Positions 55,325-64,000 of a stretch of 64,000 nt of DNA are shown piece by piece. The stretch's first letter is position 1; every line of letters starts with the position of its first letter. The DNA is from Fundidesulfovibrio agrisoli (GTDB taxonomy: Bacteria > Desulfobacterota > Desulfovibrionia > Desulfovibrionales > Desulfovibrionaceae): positions 62,001 through 126,000 of the forward strand of contig NZ_JAKZKX010000004.1 of the NCBI RefSeq assembly GCF_022808715.1, in the 5' to 3' direction. Under the pieces are notes generated by a model. That model did no database searches, was not told the origin of the DNA, and saw nothing but the letters and a program-made list of their open reading frames with translations. The position numbers and the translations under genes were made by a program.

Positions 55325-56203
55325 ATGTTCAACGATATCGAGCGGGAAGAGAAACTGGCCAACCGCAAGTTTGCCGCCATGCGCGGCAAGGAGCACATCC
55401 CGGCCCAACTGCTCGGGCTGGTGGAGGCGGTGTACCGCATCCAGAACGAAGCCCGCGCCGCCTGCATCGTGCAGGAAGTTCCCGCCGGGGAGCTCTCCAG
55501 CGTGGACCAGGTGATCCAGGGCAAACCCCTGCTGGCTCGGGAACGCTTCCCCTATGACGCGGCCCAGGCCGAAGCCCTGTTCAAACGCTTCGCGGACCTC
55601 CTGACGGACCTGGGCGGCCCCATGGCCCAGGCGGCCGACGTGATCCGCGCCGAAGGCGACGAGCTGATGCGCGCGGCCCACGCCGCCTTCCTCGCCGGCG
55701 ACCTGGACTTCTTCAAGAATTTCGCCGCGCGCACGCCCCAGGCTCCGCGCGCCCTGGCCTTCCTGGCGCAGTCCAGCATGACGCCCTCCCTGATGGCCCT
55801 GGCCTCGGTGCTGTCCCTGGCCCTGCCCCAGGACAGGAACTGGGACCATGCCGCCTGCCCGATCTGCGGCAGCCTGGCCTTCCACTCCTCGCTGCGCGGC
55901 AAGGAGGGCGTGCGCGTGCACTGCTGCTCCTTCTGCCGGGCCGAGTACCGCACCTTCAGGCTGCAGTGCGCCTACTGCGAAGAGCGCGACGCGGCCAAGC
56001 TGCCCTTCTTCACCGCCGACGAGGAGCCCGGCTACCGGGTGGACGTCTGCGAGAGCTGCAAAGGCTACATCAAGACCACGGACTTCCGCGAGCTGGACCG
56101 CCCCAGCCTGCCCGCCCTGGACGACCTGGAATCCCTGACCCTGGACATCCTGGCCATGCGCAAGGGCTACTCCCGGCCCACGGCCTCGGCCTGGGGGTTC
56201 TAG
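55325..56203 (+). CDS. fdhE: Formate dehydrogenase accessory protein FdhE
   Basis: The 292-aa protein has the FdhE C-terminal rubredoxin-like Cys motifs CPICGS, CSFCRAEY, CAYCEERD and CESCKGYIKT. The N-terminal half is helical. FdhE assists maturation of formate dehydrogenases. It is 26 bp upstream of the domesticated-transposase-like gene and about 7 kb from a truncated fdhB at the window edge. Confidence 0.9.
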   Translation: MFNDIEREEKLANRKFAAMRGKEHIPAQLLGLVEAVYRIQNEARAACIVQEVPAGELSSVDQVIQGKPLLARERFPYDAAQAEALFKRFADLLTDLGGPMAQAADVIRAEGDELMRAAHAAFLAGDLDFFKNFAARTPQAPRALAFLAQSSMTPSLMALASVLSLALPQDRNWDHAACPICGSLAFHSSLRGKEGVRVHCCSFCRAEYRTFRLQCAYCEERDAAKLPFFTADEEPGYRVDVCESCKGYIKTTDFRELDRPSLPALDDLESLTLDILAMRKGYSRPTASAWGF

Positions 56204-56228: not shown

Positions 56229-57044
56229 ATGGACAGCCAGCCGCAGTCAGCCCTTTCCGACGATCAGGCGGCCAGGGAGCGCATCGTCTCCCTGTGCCGC
56301 CAGGCGGGGGCTTGGGGCTGCCCGCGCTGCCGGAGCGAGAAGACGTACAGGCTGGGCTCCGGGCGGCTGCGCTGCCCCGGCTGCGGCTACACCTTCCACG
56401 AACTGACCGGGCGCTTCATGGGCGCGGGGGGGCTCCGGCCCGCGCAGTGGCTGCGCATGGCCGAGCTCTTCGCCGGGGAGACCCCGGTGAAGCAGAGCGC
56501 CGCGCAGCTCGATATCTCCTACAACACGGCCTACAAGGCCATGGACGCCCTGCGCCAGGCCATCCTCTCCCAGGCCACGGACGCGCGCCAGATCAAGCGG
56601 AGCCTGGCCGAACGCGACGCCGAGGAGACCCCGCCGGTGTTCGGCGTGATGGAGCACGGGCGCTGGGTCTTCGTGGACCTCCTGCCGGACGTGGAAGCGG
56701 CCGACCTGACCCTCTACAAGAGCAACTTCCGGCTCAGGACCGCCAGGGTGGGGTCGGTGGTCTACACCGGCCCCGTGCGCGGTTATCTTGGGCTGGTGTG
56801 CTGCGGGGGGCCGCAGTGGGTCTCTTCGGCCCTGAGAGGCCGCAACGGCGGGCTGGACCTGGGCGGCGCCAACCCCTTCTGGGGCTTCCTCATGGAGCGC
56901 CTGGCCCGGCTGCAGGGTGTTTCCCCTGAAAAATTTCCGTATTATCTCAAGGAATTGGAGTTCCGCTGGAACCATCGCGGGCAGGATCTCGCCGATCTGG
57001 TGACGCGCCTCGCCCTGGCCTTCTCGCCCGGCCCCGAGGAGTGA
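56229..57044 (+). CDS. Domesticated IS1595-like transposase-derived protein
   Basis: The 271-aa protein keeps IS1595-family features: a zinc ribbon (C31, C34, C49, C52), a helix-turn-helix-like stretch (about 84-108), VFGVMEHGRWVF, GSVVYTGPVRGY, NPFWGFLMERLARLQGVSPEKF and a C-terminal basic helix. The catalytic residues look lost. The segment normally containing the first Asp is missing, the second Asp position is Gly (YTGP instead of YTDG), and the region of the Glu reads ANPFW. No terminal inverted repeats are seen. It probably acts as a DNA-binding regulator, perhaps of the adjacent fdhE. Confidence 0.78.
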   Translation: MDSQPQSALSDDQAARERIVSLCRQAGAWGCPRCRSEKTYRLGSGRLRCPGCGYTFHELTGRFMGAGGLRPAQWLRMAELFAGETPVKQSAAQLDISYNTAYKAMDALRQAILSQATDARQIKRSLAERDAEETPPVFGVMEHGRWVFVDLLPDVEAADLTLYKSNFRLRTARVGSVVYTGPVRGYLGLVCCGGPQWVSSALRGRNGGLDLGGANPFWGFLMERLARLQGVSPEKFPYYLKELEFRWNHRGQDLADLVTRLALAFSPGPEE

Positions 57045-57122: not shown

Positions 57123-57392
57123 CTACCAGCGTCCGGCCGGACGGCGCTCGCGGGGGCGGGCTTCGTTGACCTTCATGGTGCGGCCGCCGTAATCGGAGCC
57201 ATTGAGGGCCTCGATGGCCTGCTTGGCGCCGTCGCCATCCATTTCCACGAAGCCGAAGCCGCGGGGGCGGCCGGTCTCGCGGTCATTGATGAGTTTCACG
57301 GACGTAACCTGGCCGTACGTCTCGAACAGTTGGCGAACCTGGTCTTCGGTGGCGCTGAAAGGCAGATTCCCGACGTAGATGTTCGTCTCCAT
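57123..57392 (-). CDS. RNA recognition motif (RRM) protein
   Basis: The 89-aa protein is a single RRM: RNP2 NIYVGNLPF at residues 4-12 and RNP1 RGFGFVEM around residue 44, then a short basic tail (RPRERRPAGRW). Small RRM proteins of this type in cyanobacteria and other bacteria are often cold-induced RNA chaperones. It is preceded by a long AT-rich leader and promoter region. Confidence 0.92.
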   Translation of the reverse strand: METNIYVGNLPFSATEDQVRQLFETYGQVTSVKLINDRETGRPRGFGFVEMDGDGAKQAIEALNGSDYGGRTMKVNEARPRERRPAGRW

Positions 57393-57507
57393 ACTCGCAA
57401 ATGCTCCTGCAAGAGGTTACCACAATCGGCGGGCGCCGTTGCCCGGCCGTTTCATCCCGCAAGGCACCGCATCGGATAACCTCAAACGCGCCCCGCAAGT
57501 AGGTTCG

Positions 57508-57549
57508 ATATACCGGGCCGTACCCCCGCATGAACGAGGCCCGATATAT
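57508..57549. repeat. Inverted repeat upstream of the RRM gene
   Basis: ATATACCGGGCC (57508-57519) and GGCCCGATATAT (57538-57549) form an 11-of-12 inverted repeat in the presumed 5' leader. Confidence 0.6.
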
Positions 57550-57568
57550 GAGATGGCATTTAGGCGGC

Positions 57569-57595
57569 CGTATATGGGAATCGGAAGTGTGTCAA
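57569..57595 (-). promoter_or_regulatory. Possible promoter of the RRM gene
   Basis: On the minus strand a perfect TTGACA (57595-57590) lies upstream of TATACG (57574-57569), but the spacing is only 15 bp. It lies in an AT-rich stretch about 180 bp before the start, giving a long leader if used. Confidence 0.35.
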
Positions 57596-57813
57596 CAGGA
57601 AAAAAGTAAGTGGTTTGGAGTCGTTCCGAACAAAGAAAGTGCCGCGAATAATATCGCGTTCCCGGGGCGGGGCGGAAATGCGCTGATTGTACGAAAAAGC
57701 AAAACCGCGAGTAAGGCAATTTCCGGGCGATCCTGTCCAATCCCCCGATGTGACTGCGAAAGTCAAACCAATTCAGCGTGTCCCGCGCGGGCGGACCGGG
57801 AGGCGGCGAGGCC

Positions 57814-58524
57814 CTAGAGCGCCAGCGCCTGCCGGGCCTGCTCAGTGGTCTCGTGCACCTGGGCCAGGGCGGCGATGCCCGCGGCCTCGAACACGCGGCG
57901 GAAATTCAGCGGCTTGCAGGCGATGGCCGCGACGCCGTGGCGCAGCTTGAACGACTCCAGGATGGAGGCCAGCCCGGAAATTGCGGCCCCGTTGAGCGAG
58001 GCGAACTCCCCAACCGCCACCAGCAGCTTGCGCAGTTGCGGCGCGTCGGCCAGTTGGGCGGCGACGTCGTCCATGTTGCCGGAGTTGGCGCCTGTGATCT
58101 CCAGCACGGCCAGTTCCCCCTCCATGCGCAGGAAGGCCGGGGCCGCGGCGCTGGCGCTGCGGCTCAGGCGTTCGCTGGCCCGATGCAGGGCTGTGGTCAA
58201 CGCCGACTGCGAGATGGGTTTGTCTATGAAATCGGTGGCCCGCAGGTTGAGCGCGGCCAGGGCCAGCTCCACGTCGCCGTGGCCGGTGATGACGATGATC
58301 TCGGTTTCCGGGCGCATGGCCTTGATGCGCGAGAGCACCTCCAGCCCGTCGATGCCCGGCATCTTGATGTCGGTGAGCACGATGGGGAAGTCGCCCTGGG
58401 CGAAAATCTCCAGGCCCTGCTCGCCCGACTCGGCCACGGAGGGCTCGTAGCCCATGGCCTGGAGCAGCAGCTCGAACATGGCCAGGGTGGGCTTTTCGTC
58501 GTCGATCACCAGAACGCGCGTCAT
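57814..58524 (-). CDS. REC-STAS response regulator
   Basis: The 236-aa protein has an N-terminal receiver (acidic DDE at 8-10, D52 in LTDIKMPGID, T in IVITGHGD, K in DKPIS) and a C-terminal domain (about 133-236) with the pattern of a STAS domain (AVLEITGANSGN, KLLVAVGEFASLNGAAISGLASILE, IACKPLNFRRVFEAAGI). There is no DNA-binding domain, so output is probably by protein interaction as in partner-switching systems. It is the last gene of a five-gene minus-strand operon and overlaps the kinase gene by 4 bp. Confidence 0.85.
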   Translation of the reverse strand: MTRVLVIDDEKPTLAMFELLLQAMGYEPSVAESGEQGLEIFAQGDFPIVLTDIKMPGIDGLEVLSRIKAMRPETEIIVITGHGDVELALAALNLRATDFIDKPISQSALTTALHRASERLSRSASAAAPAFLRMEGELAVLEITGANSGNMDDVAAQLADAPQLRKLLVAVGEFASLNGAAISGLASILESFKLRHGVAAIACKPLNFRRVFEAAGIAALAQVHETTEQARQALAL

Positions 58525-60542
58525 AAAACCTCACCGGTGCGGGCAGGGGCCGCAGGAGGGAAAAGCAGCCTGAACGTGGTGCCTTTGCCCACTTCGGTCT
58601 CAACCTGGAGCTCCCCGCCGTAGTCCTTGATGATGCCGTAGGATATGGCCAGGCCCAGACCCATGCCTTCGCCCGCCCGCTTGGAGGTGAAGAAGGGCTC
58701 GAAAATCTTCGTGACGTCCTTGGGGGGGATGCCGCACCCGTTATCCGTCACGGAAACGACCAACTGGCCGTGTTCCATGAAGGATCGTATCAGGATAGTC
58801 CCACCCCCCCGCTTCAGGGCTTGTATCGCATCGCGGGCATTGGCCACAAGGTTGAAAAACACCTGCTCCAGCCGGTTGGCGTGGGCCAGCACAAGGGGCA
58901 GGCCCTCGGCCAGTTCAAGCTGCACGCCGATGTTTTGCAGGGCCATTTGCTGCCCGATGATGGCGAACACGCCCTTGATGGGCTGGCGGATGTCCACCTG
59001 GTCGGGCATCAGGTCGGACTGGCGCCCGAACTCCCGCAGGTGGGAGATGATGGCCGCGGCGCGGTCCACCTGGGCGCTGATCTCGTCGGAGACCTGCTGG
59101 AACTTCTCCATGGGCAGGGCCTTGTCCATGCCCGCGGCCAGCTTGAGGAAGTCGCTGCCGAGCTTGATGGCGTTGAGCGGCTGGTTGAGCTCGTGGGCCA
59201 TGCCCGCGCTCATCTCGCCCAGGGTCTTCATCTTGCTGGCCTGGATGAGCTGGGCGTCCTTCTCCACCAGGTCGGTGACGTCCGTGGCCGAGAAGATCAC
59301 CACCACGCGCTCGCGGTAGGGGGCCATGGTGGCGTGTATGTTCACGTAGATGGTCTTGCCCGAGCGGGTGATGTGGCCCACCTTGGCGTAGAGCACGTGG
59401 TCGCCGGAGGTGCCCTCGGTGATGAAGCGCTGCACGCCCTGGGGGGTGCCCAGGGGCTCGATGGAGCCGATGGTCATGTCCTGGAGCTGGGCCAGGGTGT
59501 AGCCGTAGAGCTCCTGGGCGCGGGGATTGGCGTCCAGGAAGTAGCGGGTGGCCACGTCCAGCACCAGGAAGGGGTCCGGGTTGGCCTGGAACAGGGGGCG
59601 GTAACGCTCCTCGGATTCGCGCAGCCTGTGCCGGTACAGCCGGATGGACCAGACCATGTTGGCGAAGGCGTCGGCCAGTTGCACCACCTCGTCGCCGTGG
59701 CGCTTGCGGTAGAACTTGCAGGGGTTGCAGGTGCGGGGGGGCATGTCCTCCCCGGGGGCCAGTTCGTCCAGGTGCCAGCAGGGCAGATCCGTGTCGGAGT
59801 AGGCCGGGCATTCCCCGGGCTGCGGGGGGGTGCCGCCCAGGTCCAGGGGCTGGTCCAGCCGGCCCCGGCTGATGATCTCCGCCGCGCTGGTCAGCTTGCG
59901 CAGGGGCTCCACCACATAGCCCGAAAGAACCAGGGCGATGAGGAAGATGATGACCACCACCAGGGAGATGAAACCCAGGAAGGTCAGGCGCAGCTTGGCC
60001 ACCAGGGCGTCGATGTGGCTCTGGCGCAGGCCCACGTGGGCCCGGCCCAGGGTGTAGATGCCCTCCTGGATGGGCACGGAGATGTCCACCACGTCGGAGT
60101 TCTCGATGCGCAGGGGGCGCACCAGGGTGTCCTGGCTGTCGGCCGGGGCCACCACGTCCAGAAGCTCGGAGGGGAAGGGCCGCACGAAGGTGTTGGCCAG
60201 GAGCTTGCCGTCCACGTCCATGACGAAGCTGTAGGCCACCAGGGCCTTGCGGTCGCCCAGTTGGGAGACGTCGAAGAGCAGGGCCACCAGCTCTTCGGGG
60301 CGTTTGTCAAGGATGAAGCCGCCCGCCCGCTCCGCGATGGACTGGGCGATGGCGATGCCGCGCAGCTCCAGCTCGCGGTCCAGCGTGCCCACCAGGATGC
60401 CCCGCGCCAGCAGGGCGATGGCCCCGCTGATGAGCAGCACCACTCCCACCGTGGACAGGAAGATCTTGTTGCGCAGGCTGAGCGTGCGCACCCTGTTGAG
60501 CATGGCTTGCGCCCGGCCGGCGGACTGCGAGGCGGCGTTCAC
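58521..60542 (-). CDS. PAS sensor histidine kinase with four-Cys insert near HAMP
   Basis: The 673-aa membrane kinase has two helices (about 27-50 and 187-210) flanking a periplasmic region, a HAMP-like segment, and an inserted cysteine cluster (C245, C255, C272, C275) in CPAYSDTDLPCWHL ... CNPC. A PAS domain (about 311-425) is followed by the kinase core: H450 in GMAHELNQPLNAIK, NLVANARDAI, DNGCGIPP and GMGLGLAISYGI. The Cys cluster might bind metal or respond to redox; that is inference. It overlaps the genes on both sides by 4 bp. Confidence 0.9.
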   Translation of the reverse strand: MNAASQSAGRAQAMLNRVRTLSLRNKIFLSTVGVVLLISGAIALLARGILVGTLDRELELRGIAIAQSIAERAGGFILDKRPEELVALLFDVSQLGDRKALVAYSFVMDVDGKLLANTFVRPFPSELLDVVAPADSQDTLVRPLRIENSDVVDISVPIQEGIYTLGRAHVGLRQSHIDALVAKLRLTFLGFISLVVVIIFLIALVLSGYVVEPLRKLTSAAEIISRGRLDQPLDLGGTPPQPGECPAYSDTDLPCWHLDELAPGEDMPPRTCNPCKFYRKRHGDEVVQLADAFANMVWSIRLYRHRLRESEERYRPLFQANPDPFLVLDVATRYFLDANPRAQELYGYTLAQLQDMTIGSIEPLGTPQGVQRFITEGTSGDHVLYAKVGHITRSGKTIYVNIHATMAPYRERVVVIFSATDVTDLVEKDAQLIQASKMKTLGEMSAGMAHELNQPLNAIKLGSDFLKLAAGMDKALPMEKFQQVSDEISAQVDRAAAIISHLREFGRQSDLMPDQVDIRQPIKGVFAIIGQQMALQNIGVQLELAEGLPLVLAHANRLEQVFFNLVANARDAIQALKRGGGTILIRSFMEHGQLVVSVTDNGCGIPPKDVTKIFEPFFTSKRAGEGMGLGLAISYGIIKDYGGELQVETEVGKGTTFRLLFPPAAPARTGEVL

Positions 60543-61780
60543 TGGCAGGCGCTGGGGGCGAAGGGTTTCTTCCAGTCGGTTACCAGCACGAAGCGGCCGT
60601 CCTCCAGCTTGGTGAAGTAGACGCGCTGCAGGCCGCGGTGGTCGTTCGGCCCGTAGGTCAACGTGTTGGCCAGGCCCAGGGAGAAGTCATGGATGTCCTC
60701 GATGGCGTCGATGAAGCGCTCGCGGGTCAGGTCCGGCCCGGCCCGGCGCAGGCCCTCCACCAGCACCTTGGCATTGATGAAGCCCTCCAGGCCCACCGAG
60801 GTGGGGCTGTACCCGGGGTAGGCGGCGCGCAGCAGCTCGTCGTAGTCCTTCACGCCGCTCAGCAGCCCGCGCGTTTCGGGCAGGTCCGGCGGGGGCATCA
60901 CCTGGGAGACGAGCACCCTGGCCTTCTCGTCGGGGCCGAGCATGCGGGCGATCTCCTCCGCGCCCACGAAGGAGACGGCGTAGAACACCAGCTCGGGGTT
61001 CTTCTCCCTGGCCAGCTTGATGAACTTGGCCGAGGGCGCGGCCGAGCCGATGATGACCACGGCCTGGGCGTCGCTTTCGGTGATCCTGGCCAGGCCTTCC
61101 TCCACGTCCAGGGTGCCGCGCGCGTAGGAGCCCCGTGCCACAGGGGCCATGCCGTAGCTGCGCAGGGCGAACTCGGTGCCCTTGAGGCCGTCGAAGCCGT
61201 AGGCGTCGAACTGGTAGAACACGCCGATGCGCTTGAGGCCCAGGTCCCCCACGAGGTGCTCAACCGCGGCGGCGGTCTCCTGGTAGTAGGAGGGCCGCAC
61301 GTTGACCACATAGCGCTGGAAAGGGTCGCGCAGGTCGTTGGCCCCGGTGAAGGCCCCCACCAGCGGGATGCGCGCGCCCACCAGCATGGGCAGTATCCTG
61401 GTCGTGGTGGGGGTGCCCACGTAGCAGCTCAGGGCGAAGACCTGGTCCTCGACGATGAGCATCTGGGTGTTGGCCACGCAGCGGGGCGGATCGTAGCCGT
61501 CGTCGCGGGTGATGAGCGTGATCCTGCGGCCGTGCACCCCGCCCTGGCTGTTCACGTGGTTGATGTAGGCCATGGCCCCGCGCAGGGTCTCCTGCCCGAG
61601 GTGGGAGGCGTGGCCGGAGAGCGGCAGGCTGGCCCCGATGCGTATCTCGCCGCTGGTGACGCCGATGCGCCCGGTGTCGGCCTCCTTGGGCGGCGGGGGC
61701 TCGCAGGCCGCCAGCAGGGCCAGCGCGAGGAGCGACGCCGCCAGGGCAGTGAGGCGAATGAAGGGGGAGCGGCGGTTCAT
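60539..61780 (-). CDS. Solute-binding lipoprotein (Peripla_BP_6) linked to a kinase
   Basis: The start is at 61780 (MNRRSPFIRL); the longer frame upstream is not supported. The 413-aa protein has a lipobox (LLAAC, C26) and the Leu/Ile/Val-binding-protein fold (IGASLPLSGHASHLG, GGVHGRRITLITRDDG, QRYVVNVRPSYYQET, GVFYQFDAYGFDG). No permease or ATPase genes accompany it. It overlaps the kinase and peroxiredoxin genes by 4 bp each, so it probably senses a ligand for the kinase rather than importing it. Confidence 0.88.
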   Translation of the reverse strand: MNRRSPFIRLTALAASLLALALLAACEPPPPKEADTGRIGVTSGEIRIGASLPLSGHASHLGQETLRGAMAYINHVNSQGGVHGRRITLITRDDGYDPPRCVANTQMLIVEDQVFALSCYVGTPTTTRILPMLVGARIPLVGAFTGANDLRDPFQRYVVNVRPSYYQETAAAVEHLVGDLGLKRIGVFYQFDAYGFDGLKGTEFALRSYGMAPVARGSYARGTLDVEEGLARITESDAQAVVIIGSAAPSAKFIKLAREKNPELVFYAVSFVGAEEIARMLGPDEKARVLVSQVMPPPDLPETRGLLSGVKDYDELLRAAYPGYSPTSVGLEGFINAKVLVEGLRRAGPDLTRERFIDAIEDIHDFSLGLANTLTYGPNDHRGLQRVYFTKLEDGRFVLVTDWKKPFAPSACQ

Positions 61781-62400
61781 TGCAGCTTGTCCAGCTCCTT
61801 GGCCAGGGCGCCGAGGTCGGGGCGGGCGTTGATGTCGTGCACGTCGATGAAGCGGATCACGCCCTGCTTGTCGATGAGGAACAGCGCCCGTTCGGACACG
61901 CCCTCGGGGCGCAGCACCCCGTAGGTGGCGGAAACCGCCCCGTGGGGCCAGAAGTCGGAGGCCACGGTGAACCACAACCCTCCCATCTCCTTGACCCAGG
62001 CGTGCAGGGTGGGGACGTTGTCGCAGGTGATGCCGATGAGCACGGTGTCATGCTTCTCGAAGACTTCGCGGGCCAGGTTGTAGCCGGGCCACTGCCCGGA
62101 GCAGACCGGAGTCCAGGCCGCGGGCACGAAGGTGAGCAGCACGTTCTTCTTGCCCGCGTACTGGGCCAGGCTCACCCGGGAGCCGGCGATGGTGGGCAGG
62201 GAGAAGTCCGGGGCCTTGTCCCCCACGGCCACGCGCAGGGTGCTGTCCACGGGTTTGAGGGTGCCTGGGTTGAAGATCAGCTCGGGCGGCACCTGCGTCT
62301 GGCAGAGCCCCGGGGATGCCGCGAACAGGCCGGGCAGAAGCGTGGCCAGCAGCAGGCCCGCGAACCACAGACGCGCGGAGGGCAGGGCGGTGGCGATCAT
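61777..62400 (-). CDS. Exported peroxiredoxin-like protein
   Basis: The 207-aa protein has a hydrophobic N-terminal signal/anchor segment, then a thioredoxin fold with the full peroxiredoxin motif P93xxxT97xxC100 (PAAWTPVC). A second cysteine lies in ITCDN. It probably reduces peroxides outside the cytoplasm. The gene lies inside a five-gene overlapping operon, between a thioredoxin-like protein gene and a solute-binding lipoprotein gene. Confidence 0.85.
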   Translation of the reverse strand: MIATALPSARLWFAGLLLATLLPGLFAASPGLCQTQVPPELIFNPGTLKPVDSTLRVAVGDKAPDFSLPTIAGSRVSLAQYAGKKNVLLTFVPAAWTPVCSGQWPGYNLAREVFEKHDTVLIGITCDNVPTLHAWVKEMGGLWFTVASDFWPHGAVSATYGVLRPEGVSERALFLIDKQGVIRFIDVHDINARPDLGALAKELDKLQ

Positions 62401-63053
62401 TTCTTCTTTCCCTTGGCCTTGGCTTCGGGCTTCGTGTCCTGGACGGGGGCCGGTTTGGCTCCGGTCTTGGCCTGGACGGAGTCGAGGAAGGCTTTGGGGG
62501 AGGTCATGCAGCCCAGTGACTCGTCAACGATGGTGAAACCGTCCGGCCCGCGCGAGAGGATGTAGTAGAAGGGCGTGCCCACCTGGCCCAGGGACTTGTA
62601 GGCGGTGAAGTCCTTGTCCTGGAAGAGTGGGAAGTCCACCTTGAACTTGTCGCGGTAGATGGCCACCTCGAAATCGGAGTTGCCCGCCCCGAGCCCCACC
62701 ATGGCCACGCTGCCGGCCAGGCCCCGCTCGCGGATGAGGGCGTTGGCCTCCACCAGGGCCGGGCCCTCCTTCTGGCAGAAGGGGCAGTACATGGAGAAGA
62801 CCACCAGGACCACGGTGTCGGCCTTGATGTCGGCCAGGCGGAAGCTTTTGGCCCCGGGCTTGAGGCCCAGCTGCGCGGCCTCCTGGGGCGTGAACGGCCC
62901 TTGGAGCACCAGGTCCGGGAAGGCCTGGCCCACGGGCAGGGGGCGCATCTCGGGGGATTGCGAGGCGTTGGCGGCCCAGGCCGCGCCGTTTGCGGCCATG
63001 GCCGCAAACAGGGCCAACACGGCCCAGACGAGTGTGCTGCGGAAATATTTCAT
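62397..63053 (-). CDS. Exported TlpA-like thioredoxin-fold protein
   Basis: The start at 63053 (MKYFRSTLVW) gives a signal peptide ending AAWA and a 218-aa protein with a redox-active CxxC (C90, C93 in MYCPFCQK), as in TlpA/ResA-type thiol-disulfide proteins, and a cis-Pro-like region (VGTPFYYIL). A third cysteine lies in ESLGCMTS. The tail is Lys-rich. It is the first gene of the operon, and its substrate may be the peroxiredoxin downstream. Confidence 0.83.
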   Translation of the reverse strand: MKYFRSTLVWAVLALFAAMAANGAAWAANASQSPEMRPLPVGQAFPDLVLQGPFTPQEAAQLGLKPGAKSFRLADIKADTVVLVVFSMYCPFCQKEGPALVEANALIRERGLAGSVAMVGLGAGNSDFEVAIYRDKFKVDFPLFQDKDFTAYKSLGQVGTPFYYILSRGPDGFTIVDESLGCMTSPKAFLDSVQAKTGAKPAPVQDTKPEAKAKGKKK

Positions 63054-63239
63054 GGAGTCACCGTCCCGGTGGTTTTTAATATAATAACGGAACAGGCCCG
63101 AAGCTTCCACTGGGATTTCTCCGTGTTGTGAAACGGCGTCACGGAGAAAGTAAGGCGGCGCGACCGCCTGCTGGCGAAAACCGGTTGGGAGGTCCAATCC
63201 TGCCGGAAACCGCCGCAGAGCGGGCACGCCGCCTTTTGT

Positions 63240-63323
63240 AAAAAAAACGCCGGCATCGCCCCTGCGGGAGGGGTGAAGCCCCGGCCGCGCCCCGTCGGGC
63301 GCGGCCGGGGAAACCGGCGTTTT
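63240..63323 (-). terminator. Branched terminator with T run after fdhB
   Basis: The outer stem AAAACGCCGG / CCGGCGTTTT (63243-63252 and 63314-63323) encloses a GC-rich hairpin (63278-63309) and is followed on the minus strand by a T run (A run at 63240-63246). Confidence 0.7.
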
Positions 63324-63331
63324 GCTTGCAT

Positions 63332-63360
63332 CGCCGGGAACAAGTGGGGTGTTCCCGGCG
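63332..63360 (-). other. Perfect hairpin just after fdhB
   Basis: CGCCGGGAACA / TGTTCCCGGCG (63332-63342 and 63350-63360) with a 7-nt loop. It lacks a T tract; it may add to termination or protect the transcript 3' end. Confidence 0.5.
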
Positions 63361-63386
63361 GTCATGCCGTCATCGGCTTCCGGGGG

Positions 63387-64000
63387 TTAGCCCCGAGCCT
63401 GGTTGCGCAGGCCCAGCACGGCGTCCAGGGCCGCGAAGCGGGTGACGGGGCCGGCGCTGTCCGCGTCCGCCATGAGCGTGGCGTGGTAGAGCCGGGGTTC
63501 GTGCTCGGTGAGGAACACCACGCGGACCTGCTCCCAATCCACAAGGACGGCCTTGGGGTTGGTCTGCTTCAGGGCCTCGAAGCGCTTCTTTGCCATGGCC
63601 AGCATCTCGTCCCGCTCACCGAAGTTCATGGCTCCGGTGGGGCAGGTCTTGACGCAGGCGGGCAGCATCCCGGCCGTCACGCGGTCGTTGCACATGTCGC
63701 ACTTGGACATCACCTTGGTGGCGGGGTCCTGCCGGGGGATGTCGTAGGGGCAGGCACCGCGCACCACGTCGAAGGGCAGGCCCTTGGTCTTCTCGGTGAA
63801 GACCACGGCACCGGTCGCCTTGTCCTGGGTGATGGCGTCCTTGACGATGGAGTCGGCGGCGTCCTTGCAAGGCGGCTCCACGCAGTGCCGGCACTGGTCC
63901 GGCAGGAAGAGCCACTTGAAGTCGTCGCGCGAGCCCACTTCCTTCATGCGCACCACTTTGAGCGTCACGAAGGACATGTCGGGCGGGTTCTGGTGGGAAC
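63387..64000 (-). CDS. fdhB: Formate dehydrogenase iron-sulfur (beta) subunit, 5' end outside window
   Basis: The frame is open to the right edge (reading HQNPPD before MSFVTLK), so the protein continues beyond the window. Cys motifs typical of the electron-transfer subunit of periplasmic formate dehydrogenases are visible: CRHCVEPPC, GACPYDIP, and CDMCNDRVTAGMLPACVKTCP. The catalytic subunit gene is expected just outside the window. FdhE, an accessory protein, is encoded 7 kb away at 55325. Terminator structures follow the gene. Confidence 0.85.
   Translation of the reverse strand, partial: SHQNPPDMSFVTLKVVRMKEVGSRDDFKWLFLPDQCRHCVEPPCKDAADSIVKDAITQDKATGAVVFTEKTKGLPFDVVRGACPYDIPRQDPATKVMSKCDMCNDRVTAGMLPACVKTCPTGAMNFGERDEMLAMAKKRFEALKQTNPKAVLVDWEQVRVVFLTEHEPRLYHATLMADADSAGPVTRFAALDAVLGLRNQARG

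Follow-up and report, generated by a model that had tools for sequence, protein, structure and literature searches.

Near one end of a 64,000-nucleotide stretch of the Fundidesulfovibrio agrisoli genome (contig NZ_JAKZKX010000004.1, positions 62,001 to 126,000; hereafter the window) lie five genes that may serve the periplasmic selenocysteine formate dehydrogenase FdhAB encoded directly upstream. The genes, on the minus strand at 57814-63053, encode a TlpA-like thioredoxin-fold protein, a peroxiredoxin (Prx), a binding lipoprotein, a histidine kinase and a response regulator joining a receiver (REC) to a STAS domain. We assign a probability of roughly 0.5 to the reading that they are accessory genes of FdhAB, consisting of a dedicated three-component sensor and thiol service proteins. 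What we observe directly is the content and order of the genes, their conservation, their linkage to fdhA, their active-site motifs and the presence of the switch cysteines in the neighbouring FdhA.

On the minus strand the order is fdhA, fdhB, tlpA, prx, lipoprotein gene, kinase gene and regulator gene, with fdhA and fdhB on the same strand as tlpA. The window stops inside fdhB, the gene for the iron-sulfur subunit (63387..64000, minus strand; Pfam and NCBIfam), which ends 333 bp before tlpA. The full fdhB occupies L007:6387-7112, and fdhA lies upstream of it from L007:7127 to about 10180, as established from open reading frames (ORFs) and a UGA-containing translation; the gene is interrupted by a single in-frame UGA, read as selenocysteine. 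All five ORFs following fdhB were verified, and the gap is -4 at each of the four junctions (overlap letters ATGA, ATGA, GTGA and ATGA), so that the set of five genes with 4-bp overlaps described in a first-pass annotation of this DNA is confirmed. The same annotation took the overlaps to imply fixed stoichiometry. Exact 4-bp overlap at every junction is limited to the window locus and its 93%-identical sibling L046, and other congeners have up to 99 nt between these genes; we therefore reject the overlaps as evidence for stoichiometry.

Association with formate dehydrogenase extends well beyond this contig. We sampled 59 genomes (the window's own and relatives), 48 with a related FdhA and 11 without. 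Lipoprotein orthologues are present in 39/48 FdhA-bearing genomes vs. 0/11 FdhA-less genomes (Fisher P = 6e-7; the genomes counted are related, and P values here overstate independence). A scan of genome contigs with a single sequence, a weaker query than an alignment would be, returned four loci. Salidesulfovibrio brasiliensis alone among the species with orthologue loci is both cultured and named. Of the 34 loci that contig ends leave whole, 26 have fdhA no more than 10 kb away; copy number and genome size would predict 0.48. The orientation of the signalling genes to fdhA varies: they follow fdhAB directly on the same strand in L052, are divergent in L067, L070 and L078, and are convergent in L057 and L062. 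The link to fdhA has therefore survived rearrangement. L152, L154 and L156 hold more divergent cousins of the binding protein (38–39% identity). These too have fdhAB next to them, and each is accompanied by a kinase and by a regulator that binds DNA, of NarL type in L152 and of NtrC type in L154 and L156. Of all the observations, the occurrence of this binding-protein clade with fdhAB alongside three types of regulator most strongly hints at a signal concerning formate metabolism. The stretch L156:1-17001 holds its divergent binding protein–kinase–NtrC-type set with fdhAB genes on both sides.

The five genes fall into two separable parts. The lipoprotein, kinase and REC-STAS genes (the triad) are intact in 37/39 loci, one of the exceptions being cut by a contig end, and the triad is retained in the order at large as well as in other classes of the same phylum. 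Six species of the window genus have the locus, and all show the complete five-gene order, with tlpA-prx between fdhB and the triad. The first-pass claim that the genes belong together thus stands. It had also named scattering of the genes in related genomes as grounds for abandoning the idea, and here the outcome is divided: the triad holds together, but in L059, L068 and L072 tlpA-prx follow fdhAB on the strand opposite to the triad. Because these three loci carry both parts on opposite strands, tlpA-prx and the triad are separable. In L052, L074, L078 and L079 the triad lies beside fdhAB with no tlpA or prx found beside it, and in approximately 15 other loci it is followed by a different CxxC-containing TlpA, a rhodanese-domain membrane protein and MauE. 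From the two arrangements, tlpA-prx and TlpA-rhodanese-MauE, we conclude that the triad is the core, joined by one or the other of two sets of thiol-redox partners. Neither MauE nor the rhodanese-domain protein was found at the locus in the window genus, where Prx is present. The rhodanese-domain protein has approximately 580 amino acids (for example L062:2841-4577, minus strand) and is mostly encoded between tlpA and mauE; its rhodanese domain is C-terminal, with Gly at the catalytic Cys position in all aligned copies, and we read its N-terminal part as two GAF-like regions, for which Pfam gave no confirmation.

The neighbouring FdhA suggests what the thiol proteins might act on. Its nearest structures are 1h0h, the D. 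gigas FdhAB (PMC11134731), and the D. vulgaris FdhAB (6sdr). In the latter, according to two reports, an allosteric surface disulfide gates activity and O2 protection, with C872 and M405 named (PMC11134731; PMC13397495). Alignment to 6sdr places Cys, by count, at 845 and 872, and both residues and M405 are conserved in the neighbouring FdhA, which is thus predicted to be an FdhAB with the allosteric disulfide switch. Cys845 is the partner of C872 in the D. vulgaris switch. Two FdhA paralogues of the same genome lack both cysteines and have S/E and T/A there. Both switch cysteines are present in 23/27 triad-linked FdhA copies vs. 19/35 unlinked copies (P = 0.014, one truncated copy of genome G042 being counted twice among the linked ones), and in 9/9 FdhA copies with prx nearby (eight flagged, plus that of G018, whose prx was seen in L068). 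This pattern is compatible with TlpA and Prx acting on the switch, and with no more than that, because many cysteine-bearing FdhA copies have no tlpA-prx. No dedicated periplasmic thiol partner or sensor for the switch is named in the available parts of PMC11134731 and PMC13397495, and the word thioredoxin does not occur in the available text of the latter.

Both thiol proteins carry intact catalytic motifs. The first (62397..63053, minus strand; 218 amino acids; ORF, Pfam and alignment) matches Pfam AhpC-TSA/Redoxin weakly yet over the cut-off (AhpC-TSA 2.5e-8) and a ResA-type NCBIfam model at 1.2e-8, below that model's cut-off. A CxxC motif, CPFC in the window protein, is found in every aligned relative, and export is predicted from the N-terminal sequence, so that in export, fold and active site it resembles TlpA/ResA-type oxidoreductases. 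The second (61777..62400, minus strand; 207 amino acids; ORF) is a putatively exported peroxiredoxin (Pfam AhpC-TSA 8e-32) with the peroxidatic motif PAAWTPVC (C100); the form PxxxTxxC, within the peroxiredoxin consensus PxxxT/SxxC, is kept in 9/9 homologues.

The lipoprotein (60539..61780, minus strand; 413 amino acids; Pfam, alignment and structure matches) is the presumed ligand sensor. It matches Peripla_BP_6 at 1e-57, its closest solved structures are 4kv7 and 3lop, and both the lipobox Cys26 and C101 are invariant in the orthologue alignment. The gene stands beside a kinase and a regulator, with no permease or ATPase genes, and the first-pass observation that the unit contains no transporter gene agrees with our ORF and Pfam results. 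Many further members of the binding-protein clade adjoin kinase- or receptor-like genes rather than permeases, as judged in part from the length and opening sequence of the neighbouring proteins. A transport role for the lipoprotein was rejected on these grounds: the triad has no permease, and clade members adjoin signalling genes. Two loci encode a double binding protein in one frame (L064:7708-10005, plus strand, and L143:8648-10972, minus strand; 765 and 774 amino acids).

The histidine kinase (58521..60542, minus strand; 673 amino acids; Pfam, alignment and model) has transmembrane segments and, by Pfam, a periplasmic sCache_3_2 domain (54–184) followed by HAMP, PAS, HisKA and HATPase_c. 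Its HAMP connector contains a four-cysteine insert (CPAYxxTDLPCWHxD...CxxC, residues 245–275, C245, C255, C272 and C275; 59718-59810, minus strand), which is present in 22/25 orthologues, absent from three, and, to judge from the topology, located in the cytoplasm. Comparison with Pfam and NCBIfam gave no convincing family match for the insert. It may sense redox state or bind metal; the kinase model (pTM 0.40, low confidence in the insert) is too weak there for a metal site to be claimed.

The response regulator (57814..58524, minus strand; 236 amino acids; Pfam, alignment and model) joins a receiver to a STAS domain. Pfam matched Response_reg, and the receiver residues D8, D9, D52 (the acceptor), T80 and K102 are invariant in 37 sequences, as expected of a functional receiver. 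STAS (PF01740) falls under the cut-off in the window protein alone (E = 0.008) and is found in 37/37 orthologues, with a best E of 2.5e-16; the AlphaFold model (pLDDT 92.5) has an order of strands and helices consistent with STAS. A VIA-align search with this model listed almost exclusively receivers and so did not probe the STAS half. Pfam and the STAS profile revealed no DNA-binding domain, in agreement with the first-pass statement that no DNA-binding regulator is present. The protein has the STAS fold of the classical SpoIIAA/RsbV type but, where the second helix begins, lacks a Ser/Thr that could be phosphorylated: that position is Gly179, invariant in 37/37 (motif around it S-I/V-N-G-A-G-I), and the preceding residue is Asn or Ser in place of Asp. 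The Gly at the STAS acceptor position and the invariant receiver residues lead us to favor a STAS domain that would bind its partner under control of the receiver, independently of serine phosphorylation.

The spacer between fdhB and tlpA suggests how the genes may be transcribed. A terminator-like hairpin at 63240..63320 (minus strand) is very stable (z = -3.8) and followed by eight U residues; a simple terminator scan missed it. Between it and tlpA is a 90-nt hairpin (63147..63235, minus strand; fold z-scores and covariance model) with z-scores of -5.7 to -7.0 in four species, an invariant apical GGAYUGGACCUCCC and seven helix pairs changed on both sides among six sequences. A search of 21 genomes with the covariance model gave a single locus per genome in six congeners and no match in the remaining genomes. 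Because other sequence separates it from tlpA in L048 and L050, the 90-nt hairpin goes with fdhB, and we consider it a candidate regulatory or 3′-end RNA element of fdhAB. The five genes may well form a transcription unit of their own with its own promoter, which fits the strong terminator-like hairpin and the extra spacer sequence in these two congeners. A sigma-70 promoter scan of 57390-63500 gave no site, a result that is weakly informative for this organism; ten sigma-54 pattern matches in L007 correspond to chance level, and Rfam on eight loci found only an FMN riboswitch, in L059.

Taken as accessory to FdhAB, the genes could work as follows. The lipoprotein would bind a periplasmic small molecule, most likely formate or a close metabolite, and in its liganded state act on the Cache domain of the kinase, which would phosphorylate D52 of the receiver; the STAS domain would then bind or release a partner in the cytoplasm, and through this partner the production of formate dehydrogenase would be adjusted. 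Exported TlpA and Prx would act on FdhAB itself, most plausibly by maintaining the proper state of the C845/C872 surface disulfide switch (residues numbered as in D. vulgaris), or by clearing peroxide from the enzyme's surroundings. The complete version of this scheme, in which a dedicated three-component system senses formate, signals through a STAS domain driven by the receiver and independent of serine, and is combined with thiol enzymes that set the FdhAB switch, so that one locus controls both the amount and the activity state of the enzyme, is speculative and rather unlikely to hold in every part. Several observations weigh against this accessory role, besides the relatedness of the genomes counted. 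The unit has no DNA-binding output, and any control of fdh expression would be indirect at best; ligand, transcription and interactions are predictions from the genes. Eight of the 34 triad loci lie away from fdhA, and in other classes a block of triad, TlpA, rhodanese-domain protein and MauE (L138–L140) has no fdhA in the fetched stretch, two of these loci being near contig ends. Finally, because 19 of the 35 FdhA copies unlinked to the triad also carry the switch cysteines, the switch does not everywhere call for tlpA and prx.

Other explanations were weighed. The triad might run a process unrelated to formate, chemotaxis-like or post-translational, its linkage to fdhA being ancient synteny in a single order, with chance accounting for the three distant loci. 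The unlinked loci and the block outside the order would then be expected, and some clade members adjoin receptor-like genes (L147 and L149) resembling those of methyl-accepting chemotaxis proteins by sequence appearance rather than by domain search. We nevertheless consider this improbable, since the arrangement around fdhA differs between families, showing that linkage was kept through rearrangement, and linkage also appears in three distant genomes whose regulator types differ. Alternatively, the locus could be a general periplasmic redox or peroxide sensor in which TlpA/Prx chemistry feeds the kinase through the lipoprotein or the four-cysteine insert, with fdh a mere neighbor. This account, close to the first-pass model of a redox or small-molecule sensor, draws on the redox genes adjoining the sensor in six species, the frequency of the insert among kinase orthologues and the invariance of C101 in the lipoprotein. 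Yet the triad stands beside fdhAB without tlpA or prx in four loci and on the opposite strand from them in three others, and the insert is cytoplasmic and absent from three orthologues, which makes a general sensor unlikely. Of the earlier model, the link between redox proteins and a periplasmic sensor survives; the object served is most likely the adjacent FdhAB, whose genes extend past the window's end.

The first-pass annotation also proposed signalling through partner switching. In the classical form, REC-STAS would be an anti-anti-sigma factor, with an RsbW-like kinase adding phosphate to its STAS serine and a SpoIIE-type phosphatase taking it off, and would feed a general stress response. 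STAS is indeed universal among the homologues, and RsbW-like HATPase_c_2 proteins (two strong matches) and SpoIIE-type phosphatases (six matches) are encoded elsewhere in the genome. Against this, no RsbW-like kinase or SpoIIE-type phosphatase was recognised in the analysed neighborhoods, the preceding Asp is replaced, and the acceptor is Gly in all 37 homologues while the residues for receiver Asp phosphorylation are invariant; classical serine partner switching is disfavored on this ground and is the least probable of the explanations considered. A receiver-driven STAS domain may still bind an anti-sigma factor with no serine phosphorylation involved. Accessory function to FdhAB remains our preferred reading.

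Three genes at the far end of the operon complete the locus. An RRM-type RNA-binding protein gene (57123-57392, minus strand; Pfam and neighborhoods) lies directly 3′ of the operon and retains this place in 6/6 congeners. Convergent with the operon on the plus strand are genes for an IS1595-transposase-like Zn-ribbon protein (56229..57044; Pfam, neighborhoods and a 17-row alignment), possibly a domesticated transposase serving as a DNA-binding protein, and for an FdhE-like formate dehydrogenase accessory protein (55325..56203; neighborhoods; TIGR01562 at 4.7e-22, under the curated cut-off). Both recur at the fdhAB/triad loci of relatives, and two of the eight loci unlinked to fdhA (L061 and L076) adjoin an IS1595-like gene, one of them also an FdhE-like gene. 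No plasmid match was found.

In the literature searched we found no description of the full five-gene set, as the first-pass annotation had supposed, although parts of it resemble known systems. RsfS-RsfR of Mycobacterium smegmatis is a two-component system that responds to respiration and acts on a partner-switching module (PMC10950880). It shares with the window locus the use of a two-component system, but RsfR is a receiver-PP2C phosphatase rather than a receiver-STAS protein, and no binding lipoprotein is described for RsfS-RsfR. In relatives, a CxxC TlpA-like protein and a membrane protein of the MauE/DoxX kind come after the triad, which recalls MauD/MauE of methylamine dehydrogenase maturation; the target enzyme differs, and the window genus has Prx, with no MauE found at its locus. 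In TorT-TorS-TorR, a periplasmic binding protein, a membrane kinase and a regulator are encoded beside the periplasmic molybdoenzyme that they serve; TorS is a kinase of the hybrid class, and TorR is a regulator of OmpR type that binds DNA. The window locus likewise places a binding protein, a kinase and a regulator beside a periplasmic Mo/W enzyme, but it has another enzyme, an orthodox kinase and a regulator with a C-terminal STAS domain. Arsenite oxidase AioBA is also a molybdoenzyme, and AioR is of NtrC type. Periplasmic AioX, the transmembrane kinase AioS and AioR control AioBA (PMC7565993), again a periplasmic sensor protein, kinase and regulator for a Mo/W oxidoreductase; AioX belongs to another binding-protein family, and NtrC-type regulators occur only in the distant cousins L154 and L156. 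Because the STAS output offers no DNA-binding regulator to control the enzyme's promoter, a feature restricted to the cousins L152, L154 and L156, the window set would work like TorTSR and AioXSR without being a member of either.

The closest likeness on the enzyme's side is to D. vulgaris (Nitratidesulfovibrio) FdhAB: the FdhA beside the five genes is a selenocysteine-containing orthologue that retains C845, C872 and M405. The D. vulgaris enzyme is a leading CO2 reducer, its activity gated by the surface disulfide, and the TlpA, Prx and sensor genes behind fdhAB are candidates for the missing partner of the switch and for the means by which sulfate reducers sense formate. A receiver-STAS output with Gly replacing the phospho-acceptor serine throughout would, in turn, broaden what is known of STAS signalling.

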